From: Pelosinus sp. UFO1
GTDB taxonomy: Bacteria > Bacillota > Negativicutes > DSM-13327
NCBI RefSeq assembly: GCF_000725345.1
Contig: NZ_CP008852.1
Location: 4,022,001 to 4,086,000, forward strand
DNA length: 64,000 nucleotides
Direction of reading: 5' to 3'
Positions 1 to 8,497 of the stretch are shown here, in pieces (the stretch's first letter is position 1; each line of letters starts with the position of its first letter). Position numbers and translations under genes: made by a program. The notes below the pieces were generated by a model. The model was given only the letters and a program-made list of their open reading frames with translations. It made no database searches and was not told where the DNA came from.

Positions 1-656
1 ACTGAATTTGTGCTAAGACGTGTAATCAAAACAACGAGAGTAAGAGCCACTAAAAAACTGACTATAAGTAAAATGAACATATTCTTAGTGGCTGCCTTTG
101 TTATTTCGGAATTACTTGCTGCTTTTTGACCTGCTTGCGCCATTTGCAACTCCATTAAGCGGTCAATAATTTGGCTGATTTCTACTGAATATTGATTCCC
201 TTGCGTCGAATAAAGAGCATAAGCTGCTTGATTCTGACCTGTCAACGTCAGTCGCAGAACATCGTCCAAAATAACAGCCCATTTTCCTTGAATGGTTTTT
301 AGCTTATTGAATTCCTGACGCACTTCCGGTGATTGGATATTTTTTTCAAAATTATTCAATTCCGTGTCCATTGTTTTATGCAATTCAGCTACGGTATTTA
401 CATACTGTTTCTTCTTCTCTATATCATCTTCTGAGATCAATTGTCCAATACTCACGCGAATACGCTGATAGGCCATTCCAGCTTGTGCAATATCTCCAAT
501 CGATAGTGTATTTATCTCATATAACTCGGCATCAATTACCTCAATGTCTTGAATATTACGTATACCTACTACCCCCACCAGGACGGTAATAAGGACGATT
601 ATCATAAAGCTTACCATAAGTTTTTTACCAATATTTAAGTTTTTAAACCACTGCAC
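1..656 (-). CDS. Methyl-accepting chemotaxis protein, N-terminal part (runs off left edge)
   Basis: Transmembrane chemoreceptor, 218 codons visible. The reading frame opens with a basic start (VQWFKNLNIGKKLM), a first membrane helix (about residues 13-32), a roughly 150-residue helical extracellular part of the four-helix-bundle MCP type, and a second membrane helix (SFLVALTLVVLIT) just before the left edge; HAMP and signalling domains would lie outside. I chose GTG at 656 because a GGGAGAGG ribosome site precedes it; an in-frame ATG at 671 is possible. It follows cheW by 25 bases, so it is probably the last visible gene of the CheA/CheW/GGDEF operon and the likely input receptor for it. Confidence 0.85.
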   Translation of the reverse strand, partial: MQWFKNLNIGKKLMVSFMIIVLITVLVGVVGIRNIQDIEVIDAELYEINTLSIGDIAQAGMAYQRIRVSIGQLISEDDIEKKKQYVNTVAELHKTMDTELNNFEKNIQSPEVRQEFNKLKTIQGKWAVILDDVLRLTLTGQNQAAYALYSTQGNQYSVEISQIIDRLMELQMAQAGQKAASNSEITKAATKNMFILLIVSFLVALTLVVLITRLSTNS

Positions 657-681
657 GCGACCCTCTCCCATCACATTTTCT

Positions 682-1110
682 TTATACAACATCAATTATT
701 TTTTCTATATCTAACAGTAGCATAACCTGGCTATCTAGTTTTACTACTTCTGAAATAAATTGCCCTTCTACATTCCTTATATTCGCTGGCGGCAGTTCAC
801 ACATCGCAGATGTCACATCAACTACTTCTCCCAATTTATCAATAAGAAATCCTATCTGCTCTCCACGAGATATCTTTTTAAGGATGATACACCGAGAACT
901 TATCCTATCTTTTTTCTCTACAAAGCGTAATACTTCAGTGAAATCAAATAGGGTAACTACTTGTCCCCTTACATTTAATAATCCTACTATATGAGCTGCT
1001 CCACCGGGGACAGATGTATATTTGATATTGCGATTAATTTCCTTTGCCAAGGTAATATCAATACCGCACAGGCTGCTTCCAAGATAAAAGGTCAAAACTT
1101 TTCCTGTCAT
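682..1110 (-). CDS. cheW: CheW-like chemotaxis coupling protein
   Basis: A 142-residue single-domain CheW protein that would link the neighbouring receptor to the CheA kinase at the cytoplasmic face of the membrane. It begins MTGKVLTFYLGSSLCGID, and the body has the usual CheW pattern (PGGAAHIVGLLNVRGQVV, then LIDKLGEVVDV near the end). The open frame extends upstream into cheA, but the start at 1110 is supported by GGAGG nine bases before it, overlapping the end of cheA; the stop of cheA lies only one base away. Translational coupling with cheA is likely. Length is normal for a stand-alone CheW. Confidence 0.93.
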   Translation of the reverse strand: MTGKVLTFYLGSSLCGIDITLAKEINRNIKYTSVPGGAAHIVGLLNVRGQVVTLFDFTEVLRFVEKKDRISSRCIILKKISRGEQIGFLIDKLGEVVDVTSAMCELPPANIRNVEGQFISEVVKLDSQVMLLLDIEKIIDVV

Positions 1111-1111
1111 G

Positions 1112-4069
1112 TTAAGCATCCTCCAATTGCACTGCTGCGACTTTTTCCAGCAAATCCCTACGATCAAACTTACATCCGTAGGAGTTAAAACCAGCCTTTA
1201 ACATGGCTTTTTTTTGTATTTCATTTTGGGATTCATCAGATACCACAATCACTGGTATCTCCGCCAGATTTTCATCGACGCGGATACGTTGTAACATTTC
1301 CATACTGTCCACTAATGGCATATCCAAAGCAGTGATAACAACATCAATGCTTTGCTGACGAAGAAATCGCAATGCCTCTCTTCCATTCTGAACGACAAAG
1401 ACTTGATAACCAGCATATCCTAAGTACTTTTTCACAAGTCTTATAAAAAACGGTGTATCTTCTACTAGCAGCACATTTTTTGTTACCTTTTGTAGCTGAT
1501 TGTTTTCCCAGGGGATTTCTTGCTGTGGTACTGCCATTTCCAATAGTTCATATAAATCCATTAATAATACAATTTTGCCATTTACAACCGTAGATCCTAA
1601 TAAGCCTTTGGCCTGTATGTCATCCTCTGTCATCAGCAAGTCACTTTCCACTGTATCTTGAATCTTTCTTACAAGAATACCAACAGACTCTGTGACAAAT
1701 TTAGGATGAATGACATACATTTTTTCTCCTACGTTATCTTGATAAGCAACAGGCAGATGTTTTTCTGGTCTGATTAATTCTACAATATTTCCCTGGAAAT
1801 GATAAAATTCTTTGTCGCCAATTCGTTCAATTTGGTGACAACGAATTTCATTAACCCTAGCTACCATAGACAAATGCAAGGCAAATGTCTCCGGTCCAAA
1901 ACAATGAAATAGCAATAATTTTTGTAAATGTTCTCTTTTCGATTCTACGGCTGCCAATTCGATTTGCGAATTAGTAGCTTCCTCTTCGGTAAACATTAGA
2001 GCAGTTTCAGCAATGCCAGTGGCATCCAGAACCATAGCAATACTGCCATCACCTAAGATTGTGACTCCAGAATAAACCTTTCTATCTCTTAAGTGAGTTG
2101 GCATTGGTTTAACCAAAATTTCTTCTCGTCCATGAATTGTATCTACAATAAGGCCAAAAATATTTTCCTTCACTTTTATGATTAAAATCCGTGTTATGCG
2201 TTTATTGTGTTTTTCTGACAAATTCAATCCAATTACTTCCGCTAAGTGAATAATCGGGACTAATTTCCCTCGCAGCCACAAAACTTGCTGTCCTTGAATG
2301 GATTGTATTTTACCTATATCTTTGTCTTCTACAACTCTTACAATCTCCTGCAAATGAGTTTGCGGCAGAGCAAAAAAATGATTTTCTACGCCTACAATTA
2401 GTGAAGGTATTATGGCCAGTGTTAAAGGTAACAGTAAGCGAAATGTCGTGCCTTGCCCCTTAATCGTATACACCTCTACCGTACCGCCGAATTTTTCAAT
2501 ATTCGATCGTACTACATCGAGCCCAACACCCCGTCCAGAAATATCACTTACCTTAGAAACAGTGGATAATCCTGGTGAAAAAATATAATCGAGCACCTTA
2601 CTCTCACTCATAAATTTACCTTGTTCCTGATGAATTAATCCCTGCTTTAACGCCTGCTGTCTAATCTTCTCTACATTAATACCTGCCCCATCATCTCTAA
2701 TGTCGATAATGACACGCCCACCTTCATGACGAGCTTGTATTTCTAGAGTCGCAGTAGGATCTTTGCCCAATGATTTTCTTAAAGCAGCATCTTCGATGCC
2801 GTGATCTAAGGCATTGCGTATTAAATGAGTAAATGGATCAACCAATCCTTCCAAAATTGATTTATCCATTTCTACTTCCTTACCTTCCATACGTAGAGTT
2901 AAATTTTTTCCCAGCTTTTTCGATAACTCCCTTACCAAGCGAGGTATCGGTTGAAATAATATGGATACTGGTTGCATACGTGTACGCATAATTTTCTCTT
3001 GTATTTCTGTAGTGGTATGGTCAATTTTTTGCAAGATAGGCCGAATTCCTGGAATACTATCTATCTCTTTTTCTAATGCCCGCAGTAATTGATTGCGTGC
3101 CAAAACCATCTCACTCGCTAAATTAACTAAATTATTAAGTAACGTTACATCTACTTTAATACGTTCCGTATCAAGATCTTGACTGCTTCTTTTTTCTTCC
3201 CCTGAATCAAATTCACTTCGCTCCGCTTCTAGAAGATTATATCCGCTAGAACCAGTTTTATTTGGGGCGTCTATAACTTGAAAAATCTCATTTTTCTGAC
3301 TGGAAACGTCAAATTCCACAATATCTTCCTGGCTTGCACCAAGGGCCATAACCGCAAGTTCTTTTTCCAGTACTGTACTAAATAAAAAGATTGCTTCTTG
3401 CTGAGAAGCAGATCTAGTACCTTCTTGAGCCTGAGTAATATAATGGGCTAACAAAACACCTATTGATTGGATACTTTTAGCTGTATTCCCGCACAGCCGT
3501 CCCGCCTCATTAGGCTCTATGGAATGGATGTCATACTGATACTTATATACTCTATGACCTTTTCTGCTTAAATCTTCTAGCACCACTTTGACATCATTAT
3601 AAGGTTTATTCGTCTGCGAGATTGTCTCTTGCATTTCGCTAGTCAAAGAACTCGTCGTACCCTTTCCATTCATTCCAAAACTTTCGCTGGGAAAGGCTTG
3701 TTTTAATTCTTTTACATAGATAGTGATATCTTGTTGTTCGCTAGTTGTAATATGATCCAACAATACCTTAAGTTCATCATTCGCTGCTAACAATGCATCA
3801 ATGATAGGTAAAGTAATGGCTATCTCTCTACTGCGCACTTTTCCTAGCAAACTTTCAATAGCATGAGACAATTCAACAATTTTGTGGAAACCAAAAAATC
3901 CAGCTGTCCCTTTAATATTATGAGCAGAACGAAAAATGGAATGAATGATCTGCTCATCCAGTTGCCCCTTTTCAATAGCAAGCAATCCCGATTCTATCTT
4001 CTCCACATGGCTTATGGCCTCAATGACAAATTCTTGAATAAGCTTTTCATCCTTTAACACTACATGCAC
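1112..4069 (-). CDS. cheA: Hybrid CheA histidine kinase with C-terminal pseudo-receiver
   Basis: Large (985 aa) soluble kinase. Order: HPt domain (His about residue 50 in SAHNIKGTAGFFG), a poorly conserved linker, dimerisation helices (about 300-370), HATPase with N box (HLIRNALDHGIED), G1 (DDGAGIN) and G2 (GRGVGLDVV), two CheW-like modules (about 545-675 and 695-840), and a receiver (about 865-985). The receiver keeps the acidic pocket (LLVED), Ser (VVSDES) and Lys (GCKFD), but the phospho-acceptor Asp is Ala (ITALDMP). It overlaps the upstream diguanylate cyclase gene by 23 bases. The first possible start is GTG at 4069; GTG at 4060 has better spacing to GGGAGAGG. A CheA-REC next to a REC-GGDEF protein resembles WspE/WspR. 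Confidence 0.93.
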   Translation of the reverse strand: MHVVLKDEKLIQEFVIEAISHVEKIESGLLAIEKGQLDEQIIHSIFRSAHNIKGTAGFFGFHKIVELSHAIESLLGKVRSREIAITLPIIDALLAANDELKVLLDHITTSEQQDITIYVKELKQAFPSESFGMNGKGTTSSLTSEMQETISQTNKPYNDVKVVLEDLSRKGHRVYKYQYDIHSIEPNEAGRLCGNTAKSIQSIGVLLAHYITQAQEGTRSASQQEAIFLFSTVLEKELAVMALGASQEDIVEFDVSSQKNEIFQVIDAPNKTGSSGYNLLEAERSEFDSGEEKRSSQDLDTERIKVDVTLLNNLVNLASEMVLARNQLLRALEKEIDSIPGIRPILQKIDHTTTEIQEKIMRTRMQPVSILFQPIPRLVRELSKKLGKNLTLRMEGKEVEMDKSILEGLVDPFTHLIRNALDHGIEDAALRKSLGKDPTATLEIQARHEGGRVIIDIRDDGAGINVEKIRQQALKQGLIHQEQGKFMSESKVLDYIFSPGLSTVSKVSDISGRGVGLDVVRSNIEKFGGTVEVYTIKGQGTTFRLLLPLTLAIIPSLIVGVENHFFALPQTHLQEIVRVVEDKDIGKIQSIQGQQVLWLRGKLVPIIHLAEVIGLNLSEKHNKRITRILIIKVKENIFGLIVDTIHGREEILVKPMPTHLRDRKVYSGVTILGDGSIAMVLDATGIAETALMFTEEEATNSQIELAAVESKREHLQKLLLFHCFGPETFALHLSMVARVNEIRCHQIERIGDKEFYHFQGNIVELIRPEKHLPVAYQDNVGEKMYVIHPKFVTESVGILVRKIQDTVESDLLMTEDDIQAKGLLGSTVVNGKIVLLMDLYELLEMAVPQQEIPWENNQLQKVTKNVLLVEDTPFFIRLVKKYLGYAGYQVFVVQNGREALRFLRQQSIDVVITALDMPLVDSMEMLQRIRVDENLAEIPVIVVSDESQNEIQKKAMLKAGFNSYGCKFDRRDLLEKVAAVQLEDA

Positions 4070-5060
4070 CTCTCCCTACATCAATCGCAAACCATCTGTT
4101 TCTACCTTCACGTTTTGCTTGATACAAGGCATCATCGGCTTCTTTTTTTAAAGTCTCATAGGATAAATTGATATCCGGTATTATTGTTGCAATACCCAGG
4201 CTTATGGTAACATAAGGGCTGACTTTAGATGCTTTATTGGGTATTACAAGTGATTCTACAGCAAGTCGAAGTTTTTCCGCTACCTTTTGTCCCCCTGCTG
4301 AGTCAGTATCATGCAGAACAATGGCGAACTCCTCACCGCCATAACGGGTAGTTATGTCACTGCTGCGTTTCACATTTTCAGCTAAGATAGCAGCAACTTT
4401 TTTCAAGCATTCATCTCCCGCAGGATGTCCATAGGTATCATTGTAAAACTTAAAAAAATCCACATCTACCATAATGAAGGTCAACGCTTCTTTTTCCCGC
4501 AATGCATGCCACCATTCTCTAGCTAAATAATTCTCCAAACTTCTCCTGTTAGGAATTCCTGTAAGTTCATCCTCTAAGGAAAGTTCTTTTAGCTTACCAT
4601 TTACAACTTGCAGCTCTCGCATTACATTTTCCATCACCCGAGTCGTTTCTTGTAAAGTAGCATTACGTTGTTCTAAATCATGCTGATATGTTAAAATACG
4701 CCGGCCAACGGACAGGCGACAACTTAATTCTCTTGGATCAATCGGCTTCGTCACGAAATCATCAGACCCAGCATCAAAGCCAATTACCACATCTTCGACA
4801 TCACTTTTCTTGGCAGTTAATATGATAACGTAAGTATGTGCTGTCTTCTCACTCTGTTTTAACCGTCTACATAATTCAACTCCATCTATCCCTGGCATAA
4901 CCCAATCGAGCAGCACAATAATTGGTTCATTAATAACCTGAAAAATTTTCCAAGCACTTTCACCATCAGCTGCAAGAACAACCTCGTAACCCCAATGTTG
5001 TACCATTTCTGAGAGTATAGTGCGAATACTTTTTTCATCATCAATGATTAATACTTTCAT
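4047..5060 (-). CDS. Response-regulator diguanylate cyclase (REC-GGDEF)
   Basis: Makes cyclic di-GMP from two GTP when its receiver is phosphorylated. Receiver at residues 1-120 with the acidic pair (IIDDE), phospho-acceptor (LLDWVMPG) and Lys (VTKPID) all intact; a coiled-coil linker at about 125-165; GGDEF domain at about 170-335 with the active-site form GGEEF and an RxxD inhibitory site five residues ahead (RSSD ITTRY GGEEF). It is the first gene of the chemosensory operon, so the neighbouring CheA is the natural phosphodonor. The layout MCP-CheW-CheA/REC-REC/GGDEF is the Wsp theme, though no cheR or cheB homologue is visible here. The start at 5060 has a moderate GGTGA site. Confidence 0.94.
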   Translation of the reverse strand: MKVLIIDDEKSIRTILSEMVQHWGYEVVLAADGESAWKIFQVINEPIIVLLDWVMPGIDGVELCRRLKQSEKTAHTYVIILTAKKSDVEDVVIGFDAGSDDFVTKPIDPRELSCRLSVGRRILTYQHDLEQRNATLQETTRVMENVMRELQVVNGKLKELSLEDELTGIPNRRSLENYLAREWWHALREKEALTFIMVDVDFFKFYNDTYGHPAGDECLKKVAAILAENVKRSSDITTRYGGEEFAIVLHDTDSAGGQKVAEKLRLAVESLVIPNKASKVSPYVTISLGIATIIPDINLSYETLKKEADDALYQAKREGRNRWFAIDVGRGACSVKG

Positions 5061-5282
5061 TTGATCTCACCTTATTTCTATTAAAAATTATGTTCAATTG
5101 AACTGTTATGAGTTTTAATGAGAAAAATTTACTTTCACTTTGACAATTTAACCATTTTTTCTTACTTCGCTACTTTTCATGAAATAACCTTCCCTTTTAG
5201 GTATGGATTCATTGACAGATTCAGGAACCTATGCATCTGCTATAGTAATGAGACCTAAAAGCTAGTGCAGCGCAAACTTAAC

Positions 5283-5315
5283 ACTAAAGGCCCTCCTTAA
5301 CGGAGGGCCTTTAGT
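5283..5315 (-). terminator. Hairpin terminator after the 5325-7031 MCP gene
   Basis: A perfect 14-bp inverted repeat (ACTAAAGGCCCTCC with its complement) around a five-base loop, starting 10 bases after the MCP stop codon. The U tail is weak. The remaining stretch to 5060 shows no gene and presumably holds the promoter of the diguanylate cyclase operon. Confidence 0.75.
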
Positions 5316-5324
5316 ATTACTCTT

Positions 5325-7031
5325 CTATATCCTAAACCTTCTTACAACGCCTTGAAGTTCTTCTGCCATCTTAGCTAATGCCTGGCTAGATGCAGCAATC
5401 TCTTCCATGGATGCTGATTGCTCCTCAGTAGCTGCAGATACAGTTTGAGTTCTACTGGCCGTATCTTTACTAATTTGGTCAATATCATGTACAGATGCTA
5501 CGATCTTCTGGCTACCCGAAGCCATTTGCCCAATAGAAGCAGAAGTTTCTTTGATTTGACCTGTCAATTGATCAATAAAAGTAGAAATTTCTTTGAAAGC
5601 TTTCCCAGCAGTGTTTACTACCTCAGCTCCCACATTGACCTCACGACTTCCTTCTTTCATAGCGTTAACAGCTTGATCTGTATCCATACCAGCTTCTGCA
5701 ATTAAATTTGCAATTTCCTTTGCTGACTCTTGAGATTGTTCTGCTAACTTTCGTACCTCTTCCGCAACTACAGCAAATCCTCTACCATGCTCTCCTGCAC
5801 GGGCAGCCTCAATAGCTGCATTCAAAGCAAGTAGATTCGTTTGTGCCGCAATTCCAGAAATCGTCTCAACAATTTGTCCCATTTCTTTCGATCTTTCCCC
5901 TAGTTTTGCAACAACATTCGCTGATTTGGTCACTGTCTGTTCCACAATATCCATCTGATTCATTGCAGCTTTTACTGCTTTACCACCATCTTGGGCTGCT
6001 TGGAACGTTTTATCGGATACCTCACTCATTTTTGTTGCATTTAGGGAAACTTGCTCAATACCCGTAGATAACTGTTCAACTACGGAAGTAGTTGTCGTTA
6101 CTGCACTAGCCTGGTTTTCAGCCCCCTGGGCTACTTCACTAATGGTAGCTGCTACCTGATTGGTAGCCTGCGCTGATTGTTCTGCACTTGCTGTCAGTTC
6201 TTCTGAAGACGCCGCCACCTGTTCAGCTGATTCAATTACCTGGCGGACAACTCCTTTTAGACTATCAGCCATCTTGTTTAAACCCTGGCCTATTTCACCG
6301 ATTTCATCCCTCTCGGCGATTTTTACGTTTTCTAGACCTAAATTCCCATTTGCTATTTCAGCTAAAAAGGCACCTACAGTTCCTAATCTGCTGACAATCA
6401 TAGTAGATAGTTTCCACCCAAGAAACATACTTAGTAAAGCAAAAAGCCCCGTTAATGAGAAAATCACTTTACCGGCAAAACTAGCATGTTCTTCTCCTTC
6501 TCGATTGGCCTTATCACTTTTTTCCGCCATATAATTTGCTAGTTCTTGGAGAGTTATATTTACCGCTTCAAGTTTACCTGCAGCCTGCTGGGTAAAATAT
6601 GTATAAGCTTCTTGCTTTTTCCCTTGTTTTGCTAAATCAATTGCCTTTTGTCGCTCTGTCCGATACTGACCAATTGCTTCTTTTAGCTTAAGTAATTTTT
6701 CTTGCTCATATGGTGTTAGTTTTTGACTCTCATAGGCTTTTAAGGTTTTATCCGTTTCCAATGCCAATGATTTTATTTCATTTGTTAACTTATCTTCGGT
6801 TGCCTTATCTACATTACCAAAAATAAGTTCCAGAATCATTCCGTGAACTGCCCTAAAATTATGCCGAGTCTCATTTAATCGTTTAATGGATAAAAGATTT
6901 TCATTGTACATAATTTTCATTTCATTGCTCATTGCATTTGTATAATAATACCCTATCGAACCTACTGTGAGCATGGCCAATGAAACTACTAAAATAATGG
7001 TAAGAATTTTCCCCTTAATTCTAAGCTGCAA
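5325..7031 (-). CDS. Methyl-accepting chemotaxis protein under a c-di-GMP riboswitch
   Basis: Complete 568-residue receptor: membrane helix at about 10-30, four-helix-bundle sensor region, second membrane helix at about 186-208, HAMP, then a long cytoplasmic signalling domain with the conserved hairpin tip ([20 protein letters not shown]) and glutamine/glutamate-rich methylation segments. I take TTG at 7031 as start because AGGAGG sits seven bases upstream; there is no better ATG. Its leader carries a c-di-GMP-I riboswitch followed by an intrinsic terminator, so its expression should respond to the second messenger made by the diguanylate cyclase encoded immediately downstream. The ligand is unknown. 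Confidence 0.95.
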
Positions 7032-7044
7032 AATAATCCTCCTA

Positions 7045-7087
7045 AAATAAAAAAATTAGCACCAGTTCACTATGTCCTGCTGCTAAT
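7045..7087 (-). terminator. Riboswitch expression-platform terminator
   Basis: On the minus strand ATTAGCA pairs with TGCTAAT across a 19-base interval with further inner pairing, and is followed by an uninterrupted U run. It lies between the c-di-GMP aptamer and the ribosome site of the MCP gene, as expected for transcriptional control. Confidence 0.7.
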
Positions 7088-7100
7088 TACAAATCTAAAT

Positions 7101-7185
7101 TGAATCGGCAGCTTGGCGGTCATAGAATAAAAATTCCTTAGACCCATAGCTTTGCGTCCTTACCTTTCGATAAGTTTGCCCAATA
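7101..7185 (-). promoter_or_regulatory. Cyclic di-GMP-I (GEMM-I) riboswitch aptamer
   Basis: Read on the minus strand, the segment contains the class I hallmarks in order: a hairpin capped by CGAAAG, the highly conserved GGACGCAAAGC, a second stem (GGGUC with GACC), and the receptor segment CCGCCAAGCUGCCG. Family assignment rests on these recalled consensus elements, not on a covariance search. It precedes an intrinsic terminator and the MCP gene. Confidence 0.88.
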
Positions 7186-7266
7186 TTTGGTTTCGTATTT
7201 TTACTTTATTCTACATTATATTACATATAATGTCAACAAAATGAACTATTAAGACTTCATAATATA

Positions 7267-8394
7267 TTACTGCTTATTGATTCGGCTCAAGAGGAGGGCT
7301 GTAATGGCAGCTGTTAGCGGTATGGAGCAGATTAATCCAATGCTTCCAGTAAGAGCTCTCGTTATTTCTGTCGCCACAATATTTAAATTCATAATGCGTA
7401 CTAAGGACACATTTTCTTGTGATGTAATCAGAAAAATCAAAGGTAAGGAACTCCCCGTATAAGCTAAAATTAAGGTATTTGCCATAGTTCCCATAACATC
7501 TCGTCCAACGTTTATGCCAGATTTAAATACTTCTGTAAATCCATAATGAGGACAAGATTTTTTAATTTCAAATTGGGTAGAGGCAATCGATATCGTTACA
7601 TCCATCACAGCGCCTAGTGATCCTAAAATAATTCCTGCAAATAGAACTTCTTGAAAGTTCATGAAGGATAACGTAGTAACTTTGAGCATCATAGCTTCTT
7701 CACTATCTAAGCCTGTTAAATGCATCCACGAAATGGATATTGCTGCTAAAATCCCTGCTATAACAACACCACCTACAGTACCAATAATTGCTCCCCAGGT
7801 CTTTGCATTCCAACCACTAATTGTAATTTGCGTTACGGTAGCAATCACTGCACAAACAAGCATGGTAGCCAAAATAAAGTTCCAATGATAACTCAAAATA
7901 AGGGGAATCATACCCTTAAGAATCAAAATTACAGAAAAACAAATAACAAACAAGGTCTTAACACCAATCTTTTTCCCAAGCAACAACAAGGATAAAATAA
8001 AGACACCTACTAGTATATACATAGGAAAAAGGCGATTATAATCCGCGACATGGTATTGTTTTACACTTTGTGTCTCGTTTACAGCCAAAATGATCTTATC
8101 CCCAGGACTAGGGCTGATGTCAAATAATGGCTGGTTGGTAGTATAGTTAATACTCTGCACCTCTTTACCAGCTTCTGCCCCTGATGTAAGCTGAATCGTT
8201 ATTAAATTTTTCCCAGTAACCCCCATATTCTTATTCGATGAAATTTCAAGGGATTGTACCGACAACACTACGCCATTTATATAATCAATTGGTTGCGGAT
8301 TGTTAGCTGCCGCAAAGGCGGGCGCTACATCCAAATGTAAGAAAGCAATAACATTCATTAAAATATAGAGTAAAAAAATTCGTTGTATTTTCAT
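7267..8394 (-). CDS. YibE/F family membrane protein
   Basis: A 375-residue protein with a cleavable-looking signal sequence (first about 29 residues ending AFAAA), a soluble extracytoplasmic segment of about 90 residues (VLSVQSLEIS... SPGDKIILAV), then about seven or eight membrane helices. The arrangement and motifs such as GSLGAVMDVTISIAS and GRDVMGTMANTLILAYTG match YibE/F proteins, whose molecular function is not established. The start at 8394 has AAGGAG at correct spacing. It stands alone between the MCP leader and the adenosyltransferase terminator, so context does not reveal its role. Confidence 0.85.
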   Translation of the reverse strand: MKIQRIFLLYILMNVIAFLHLDVAPAFAAANNPQPIDYINGVVLSVQSLEISSNKNMGVTGKNLITIQLTSGAEAGKEVQSINYTTNQPLFDISPSPGDKIILAVNETQSVKQYHVADYNRLFPMYILVGVFILSLLLLGKKIGVKTLFVICFSVILILKGMIPLILSYHWNFILATMLVCAVIATVTQITISGWNAKTWGAIIGTVGGVVIAGILAAISISWMHLTGLDSEEAMMLKVTTLSFMNFQEVLFAGIILGSLGAVMDVTISIASTQFEIKKSCPHYGFTEVFKSGINVGRDVMGTMANTLILAYTGSSLPLIFLITSQENVSLVRIMNLNIVATEITRALTGSIGLICSIPLTAAITALLLSRINKQ

Positions 8395-8497
8395 GATAAA
8401 ACTCCTTGCTATAAAAAAATAAAATGTACTAGACCTATCTGTACAGAGAAATAAAACTTGATTCAGAAGTTATTGTACTTTCAAATCTCGTAAATAA

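Follow-up and report, generated by a model that had tools for sequence, protein, structure and literature searches.

A chemosensory operon encoding a predicted diguanylate cyclase in Pelosinus sp. UFO1 lies beside a chemoreceptor gene that is preceded by a c-di-GMP riboswitch. This arrangement raised the question of whether the cyclase product controls the neighboring receptor in a closed loop, as a first-pass annotation had proposed, or acts on another chemosensory array. The window analyzed here is a stretch of 64,000 nucleotides (positions 4022001-4086000) of a genome assembled as a single contig of 5,115,410 bases. Its relatives in the collection were Pelosinus (P. propionicus, P. fermentans), diderm Firmicutes. 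Genes, aptamers, terminator geometry, receptor lengths and conservation were read from the sequence. On the minus strand, the order was YibE/F, promoter, aptamer, terminator, the first receptor gene (MCP, 7031-5325), a hairpin, and then the genes for REC-GGDEF, hybrid CheA, CheW and a second MCP starting at 695. The operon ran on beyond the left edge of the window with cheR, cheY and cheX. The features were as follows.

7267..8394, minus strand: YibE/F family membrane protein gene (PF07907), adjoining the riboswitch-MCP unit on its upstream side in 8/8 Pelosinus loci
7208..7236, minus strand: sigma-A type promoter of the riboswitch MCP gene, TTGACA-N17-TAGAAT, agreeing with the consensus at 11/12 positions and lying 17 nt upstream of the aptamer
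7104..7190, minus strand: class I c-di-GMP riboswitch aptamer (RF01051), 87.4 bits against a gathering score of 35
7054..7088, minus strand: intrinsic terminator of the riboswitch, predicted OFF-type, hairpin dG -13.6 followed by a U-run
7038..7043, minus strand: Shine-Dalgarno sequence AGGAGG of the riboswitch MCP gene, read directly from the sequence
5325..7031, minus strand: riboswitch-controlled chemoreceptor, 568 aa, 4HB sensor and signaling domain of 44-heptad length (PF12729, PF00015), 156 residues from tip to C-terminus
5283..5315, minus strand: terminator-like hairpin separating the receptor gene from the chemosensory operon, 14-pair stem, palindromic and reported on the plus strand
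4047..5060, minus strand: response regulator of REC-GGDEF type (PF00072, PF00990), predicted to be an active diguanylate cyclase, with RYGGEEF, RxxD I-site and the receiver Asp in LLDWVMP
1112..4069, minus strand: CheA kinase containing two CheW-like domains and, at its C-terminus, a receiver with Ala for the phospho-acceptor Asp, from the receiver alignment
682..1110, minus strand: CheW coupling protein (PF01584), 142 aa from ATG, as in more distant Pelosinus orthologs
1..695 and past the left edge, minus strand: N-terminal portion of the chemoreceptor that belongs to the operon; the whole protein has 681 aa and is of 58-heptad length by residue count
Outside the window, following the operon's chemoreceptor: cheR (L009 7741-8616), cheY (L009 7389-7772) and cheX (L009 6911-7384)

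The gene calls agreed with the earlier description of receptor, CheW, hybrid CheA and REC-GGDEF genes as one Wsp-like operon. As in Wsp of Pseudomonas (WspA-WspF, WspR), a receptor, CheW, a receiver-bearing CheA and CheR come together with a REC-GGDEF cyclase that serves as the output. The catalytic and receiver residues of the cyclase were intact; the receiver Asp, RYGGEEF (GGEEF) and the RxxD I-site were kept in 7/7 Pelosinus orthologs. This upheld c-di-GMP as the output to be expected from the sequence. The first-pass annotation had also reported no cheY, cheR or cheB in view. The absence of cheB (WspF) held for the operon, also beyond the window edge, and the two cheB genes of the genome were found elsewhere, in the flagellar-cluster and second che systems. 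The absence of cheR and cheY was an effect of the window edge. The Pelosinus operon differs from Wsp in having no cheB, one cheW, and an extra cheY and cheX. WspA is a 40H receptor, whereas the length of the operon receptor fits 58 heptads.

The label of hybrid CheA was correct in that a C-terminal receiver was present (residues 866-977). However, in this genome and in G008 an Ala stood in place of its phospho-acceptor Asp. The receiver was lost in G003, G004, G005 and G009 and was intact only in G006 (P. propionicus). Across Pelosinus this domain is decaying, which is a further difference from Wsp, where CheA is fused to a functional receiver. Since the residue is Ala here, the domain is defective in G008 and it is missing in four other species, the receiver is, judged from these sequences, dispensable. 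An obligatory phosphate relay through the CheA receiver was ruled out because most members of the genus have a degenerate domain or none. These comparisons suggested that the operon resembles Wsp in the way it works, yet several defining Wsp features fail. A hybrid CheA of this type together with a 205-residue receptor was widespread in Clostridia. Such clusters (Heliobacterium, Peptococcaceae, Sporomusa and others) have a hybrid CheA of ~39-48% identity and 205-residue receptors; most have cheW, and many also have cheR, cheY and cheX. In contrast to Pelosinus, only part of them carry a REC-GGDEF gene, and no c-di-GMP-I riboswitch was found in the six loci scanned.

The riboswitch was then considered. 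The claim of a class I c-di-GMP aptamer with a terminator before the neighboring MCP gene was borne out. The RF01051 match at 7190-7104 covered all 87 model positions with an E value of 6e-16, the top score among the 11 in the genome. In the aligned aptamer, a G and a C were present at the positions that we take to be Vc2 G20 and C92. An orthologous aptamer lay at the same place in seven other Pelosinus genomes. The terminator hairpin (7088-7054) was followed by AGGAGG and then by the TTG start of the MCP gene. In thermodynamic folding with a crude ligand model, the terminator still formed when the aptamer was locked, with P(terminator) of 0.88. In the ligand-free transcription intermediate, the 5' arm of the terminator paired with the 3' strand of the aptamer, for which the folding model gave a mean P of 0.71. 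This antiterminator duplex beat 98.8% of shuffled arms (1.2% of shuffles were as good), which is moderate support; the same test was applied to several switches. In the OFF switch Cd1, the terminator can form alongside the aptamer and both compete with an antiterminator, while in the ON switch pilM aptamer and terminator exclude each other (PMC9262584). In the MCP leader, the terminator could form beside the folded aptamer, and a competing antiterminator made use of the aptamer 3' strand. Since this geometry agrees with Cd1 and is contrary to that of pilM (PMC9262584), the MCP riboswitch was predicted to be an OFF switch, in which high c-di-GMP would lower the receptor. Cd1 of Clostridioides difficile (class I, transcriptional OFF) shares with it the RF01051 aptamer, the coexisting terminator and the aptamer 3' strand as antiterminator (PMC9262584). 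The two differ in that Cd1 controls the flagellar operon and the Pelosinus switch a chemoreceptor gene.

The riboswitch and its receptor gene appeared to be separate from the operon. TTGACA and TATGTAATATAATGTA directly before the aptamer were invariant in 8/8 Pelosinus genomes, while the surrounding sequence drifted. A strong hairpin 3' of the receptor gene was found in 8/8 Pelosinus species. Because the receptor gene has its own conserved promoter and is followed by this hairpin, it is most likely, on sequence grounds, a single-gene unit outside the operon, and the operon would not be riboswitch-controlled. For the same reasons, regulation of the entire operon by the riboswitch was ruled out. 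In G007, YibE/F, the riboswitch and the receptor (78% identical) were followed by an opposite-strand FlxA-like gene and then pgaABCD; the chemosensory operon was absent beside the riboswitch-receptor unit. YibE/F, riboswitch-MCP and the operon were syntenic in seven species (7/8 Pelosinus loci) with both flanks variable, in a set of comparison genomes that comprised one genus plus two relatives, several of them incomplete. This synteny leaves some functional link between unit and operon possible.

The two receptors were compared by residue counts from the hairpin tip to the C-terminus (or last heptad), from which the heptad classes were assigned. Counts of 128, 156 and 205 residues fitted 36, 44 and 58 heptads with a constant offset of +2. 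The riboswitch receptor had 156 residues (44 heptads), the predominant length class of this genome, common to 29 receptors, and its aligned length equaled that of Thermotoga 2ch7_A. By residue count it therefore carried the 44-heptad signaling hairpin of F1-type flagellar receptors. The operon's own receptor had 205 residues (58 heptads), as did its Pelosinus orthologs, and 128 residues (36 heptads) were counted for the receptor encoded in the second che operon. Both the riboswitch receptor and the operon's own receptor had a 4HB sensor. The heptad class of a receptor tends to match its pathway class, 44H being usual for the F1 flagellar pathway (PMC6943060). The three CheA genes of the genome fit three arrays. 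From its length, the riboswitch receptor looks built for an array other than that of the operon.

The riboswitch of this locus was one of many. Among the 11 c-di-GMP-I riboswitches of the genome, seven preceded receptor or che genes: six lay before receptor genes and one before a complete cheY-cheA-cheW-mcp-cheR-cheB operon. Of the remaining four, one each lay before a polysaccharide operon, a gene for an RTX repeat protein, a gene for an HD-GYP-like protein and a short ORF only. Outside the che operon, the riboswitch receptors had the 156-residue length in every case read whole (the L145 fragment was unmeasured). Five of the 11 had ON geometry and six OFF-type geometry. Among the seven chemotaxis leaders, receptors L047, L048 and L052 were predicted to rise with c-di-GMP, and the 7031-5325 receptor, L051, L053 and the L045 che operon to fall. 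In the ON geometry, the terminator arm was the aptamer's own 3' strand, and locking the aptamer lowered P(terminator) from 0.85-0.98 to 0.17-0.37. Class I riboswitches of C. difficile are described as OFF (PMC11477304); in contrast, the Pelosinus genome also uses the pilM-like ON geometry. In the four genomes with all riboswitches read (G000, G003, G004, G008), receptor or che genes stood behind 26 of 46, of which 12 were ON and 14 OFF-type. The sign was constant in 8/9 ortholog groups and differed in one (L052/L166 ON, L148/L176 OFF). The signs of L053/L170, L054/L171, L165 and the G003/G004/G006 MCP leaders were set by hand, as the automatic terminator scan had misjudged or missed them. In two leaders, L045 before the che operon and L054 before the HD-GYP gene, an antiterminator was not supported by the folding model, and the OFF sign of these two is therefore weaker.

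Several of these loci deserve separate mention. The receptor genes of L052/L166 and L148/L176 were at least 60% identical, with ON switches in two species and OFF-type switches in two others, a possible evolutionary flip of sign. At L045 (7301-7388, genes to 14396; G000:C1:955301 onwards), a complete che operon with a 36-heptad mcp followed a putative OFF-type riboswitch, an arrangement also seen in G003 and G008. G001 had two c-di-GMP-I riboswitches upstream of a CheA match. At L049 (4062-4148; G000:C1:2268061) and L165, only a short ORF (~56 aa, MNQEELQQLVKKYF...) followed an ON-type c-di-GMP-I riboswitch with a very strong terminator, and G008 had a similar ORF. A c-di-GMP-I riboswitch at L054 (8606-8697) preceded an HD-GYP-like phosphodiesterase gene (7404-8477) and, if OFF, would give positive feedback on c-di-GMP. 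An OFF-type c-di-GMP-I riboswitch at L050 (3352-3440) lay before a protein of at most 1798 aa with RTX calcium-binding repeats. A lysine riboswitch (L054 804-977, 127 bits) was located upstream of a 462-aa ORF.

Two transcription units would thus lie side by side, a Wsp-like operon and a single receptor gene under riboswitch control. From the features above we infer the ligand response and its sign in the cell, which kinases the receptors couple to, the physiological direction and c-di-GMP as the output. In the operon, the 58-heptad receptor, CheW and CheA would lead to phosphorylation of the REC-GGDEF cyclase and CheY; CheR would methylate the receptor, CheX would dephosphorylate, and c-di-GMP would be the output. 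In the single-gene unit, the terminator would form when c-di-GMP is bound, giving less receptor synthesis. With no ligand, its 5' arm would pair with the aptamer 3' strand, and transcription would read through. In this way, c-di-GMP from the neighboring cyclase and up to 19 others would act on another, flagellar-type 44-heptad array. We consider it probable from the sequence data that c-di-GMP alters which receptors make up the flagellar array through these two units, as part of a wider regulon. Since the riboswitch receptor, with its 44-heptad length, fits the flagellar-type array, the connection would be feed-forward and not feedback.

The proposed feedback loop found little support in this comparison, although parts of the evidence agree with it. 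In a dedicated negative feedback, the riboswitch receptor would signal to the neighboring CheA, and c-di-GMP from the cyclase would switch the receptor off. The unit adjoins the operon in seven Pelosinus genomes, the switch is predicted to be OFF-type and both receptors share the sensor type; moreover, motility-pathway receptors can interact with biofilm-pathway components in Comamonas (PMC6391922). However, the receptors differ in length class (156 and 205 residues), they belong to separate transcription units, and the unit of G007 stands without the operon. The other six chemotaxis riboswitches lie elsewhere in the genome, and none of the six related operon loci scanned (other Clostridia, Sporomusaceae) had one; the genome holds 20 GGDEF domains and 11 riboswitches, seven of them before receptor or che genes. 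We regard this loop as unlikely. A local feed-forward would explain the kept synteny of YibE/F, riboswitch-MCP and operon between variable flanks by a local c-di-GMP pool, formed by gene neighborhood or protein localization, that favors the adjacent riboswitch. Against this, the same aptamer occurs in riboswitches on receptor genes far away, G007 kept the unit alone, 20 GGDEF domains share the cell, and synteny within a genus can persist without function. It is similarly doubtful. Some points nevertheless count against the two-unit reading: the synteny of unit and operon at 7/8 loci could mean a closer link, and receptor cross talk between pathways is documented in Comamonas (PMC6391922). The heptad classes taken from residue counts, the moderate antiterminator support and the weaker OFF sign of two leaders also limit it.

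It was also considered whether the real output of the operon is CheY-dependent motility, or PNAG via pgaABCD, rather than c-di-GMP. The operon ends with cheY and cheX. The pgaABCD genes follow it directly here and in G008, and PNAG synthase is activated by c-di-GMP (PMC8461298). However, a terminator lies within the 291 nt gap between the operon and pgaABCD, and the pga genes have their own promoter-like sites. The operon begins with the cyclase gene, in which every catalytic motif is retained. PNAG as a conserved output was ruled out, since pgaABCD adjoins the operon in only 2/7 genomes, and five Pelosinus genomes with the operon had no PgaC match over the cut-off. An output other than c-di-GMP thus seems quite improbable. 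As a separate observation, the genome has two pgaABCD-like loci (L009 714-6619 and L179 5343-11423). PgaC exceeded the curated cut-off in 3/8 Pelosinus genomes, each of which has one copy at the riboswitch-MCP locus.

Returning to the two-unit reading, c-di-GMP would act through riboswitches of opposite sign, by which some 44-heptad receptors would go up, others down, and the second complete che operon down. We tentatively suggest that c-di-GMP in Pelosinus may exchange the chemoreceptor set by these switches and the shut-off of a che operon, and that the 58-heptad array may supply part of this c-di-GMP and so reprogram another array. Published work describing chemoreceptor sets under c-di-GMP riboswitches of opposite sign was not found, a provisional statement as the literature coverage was incomplete. 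It is established that c-di-GMP sets whether cells swim or settle. By opposite-sign RNA switches on receptor genes, it would also set which stimuli the swimming machinery detects. The matching of the receptor repertoire to lifestyle would thereby become directly testable in a culturable genus with named ON and OFF receptor genes and leaders.
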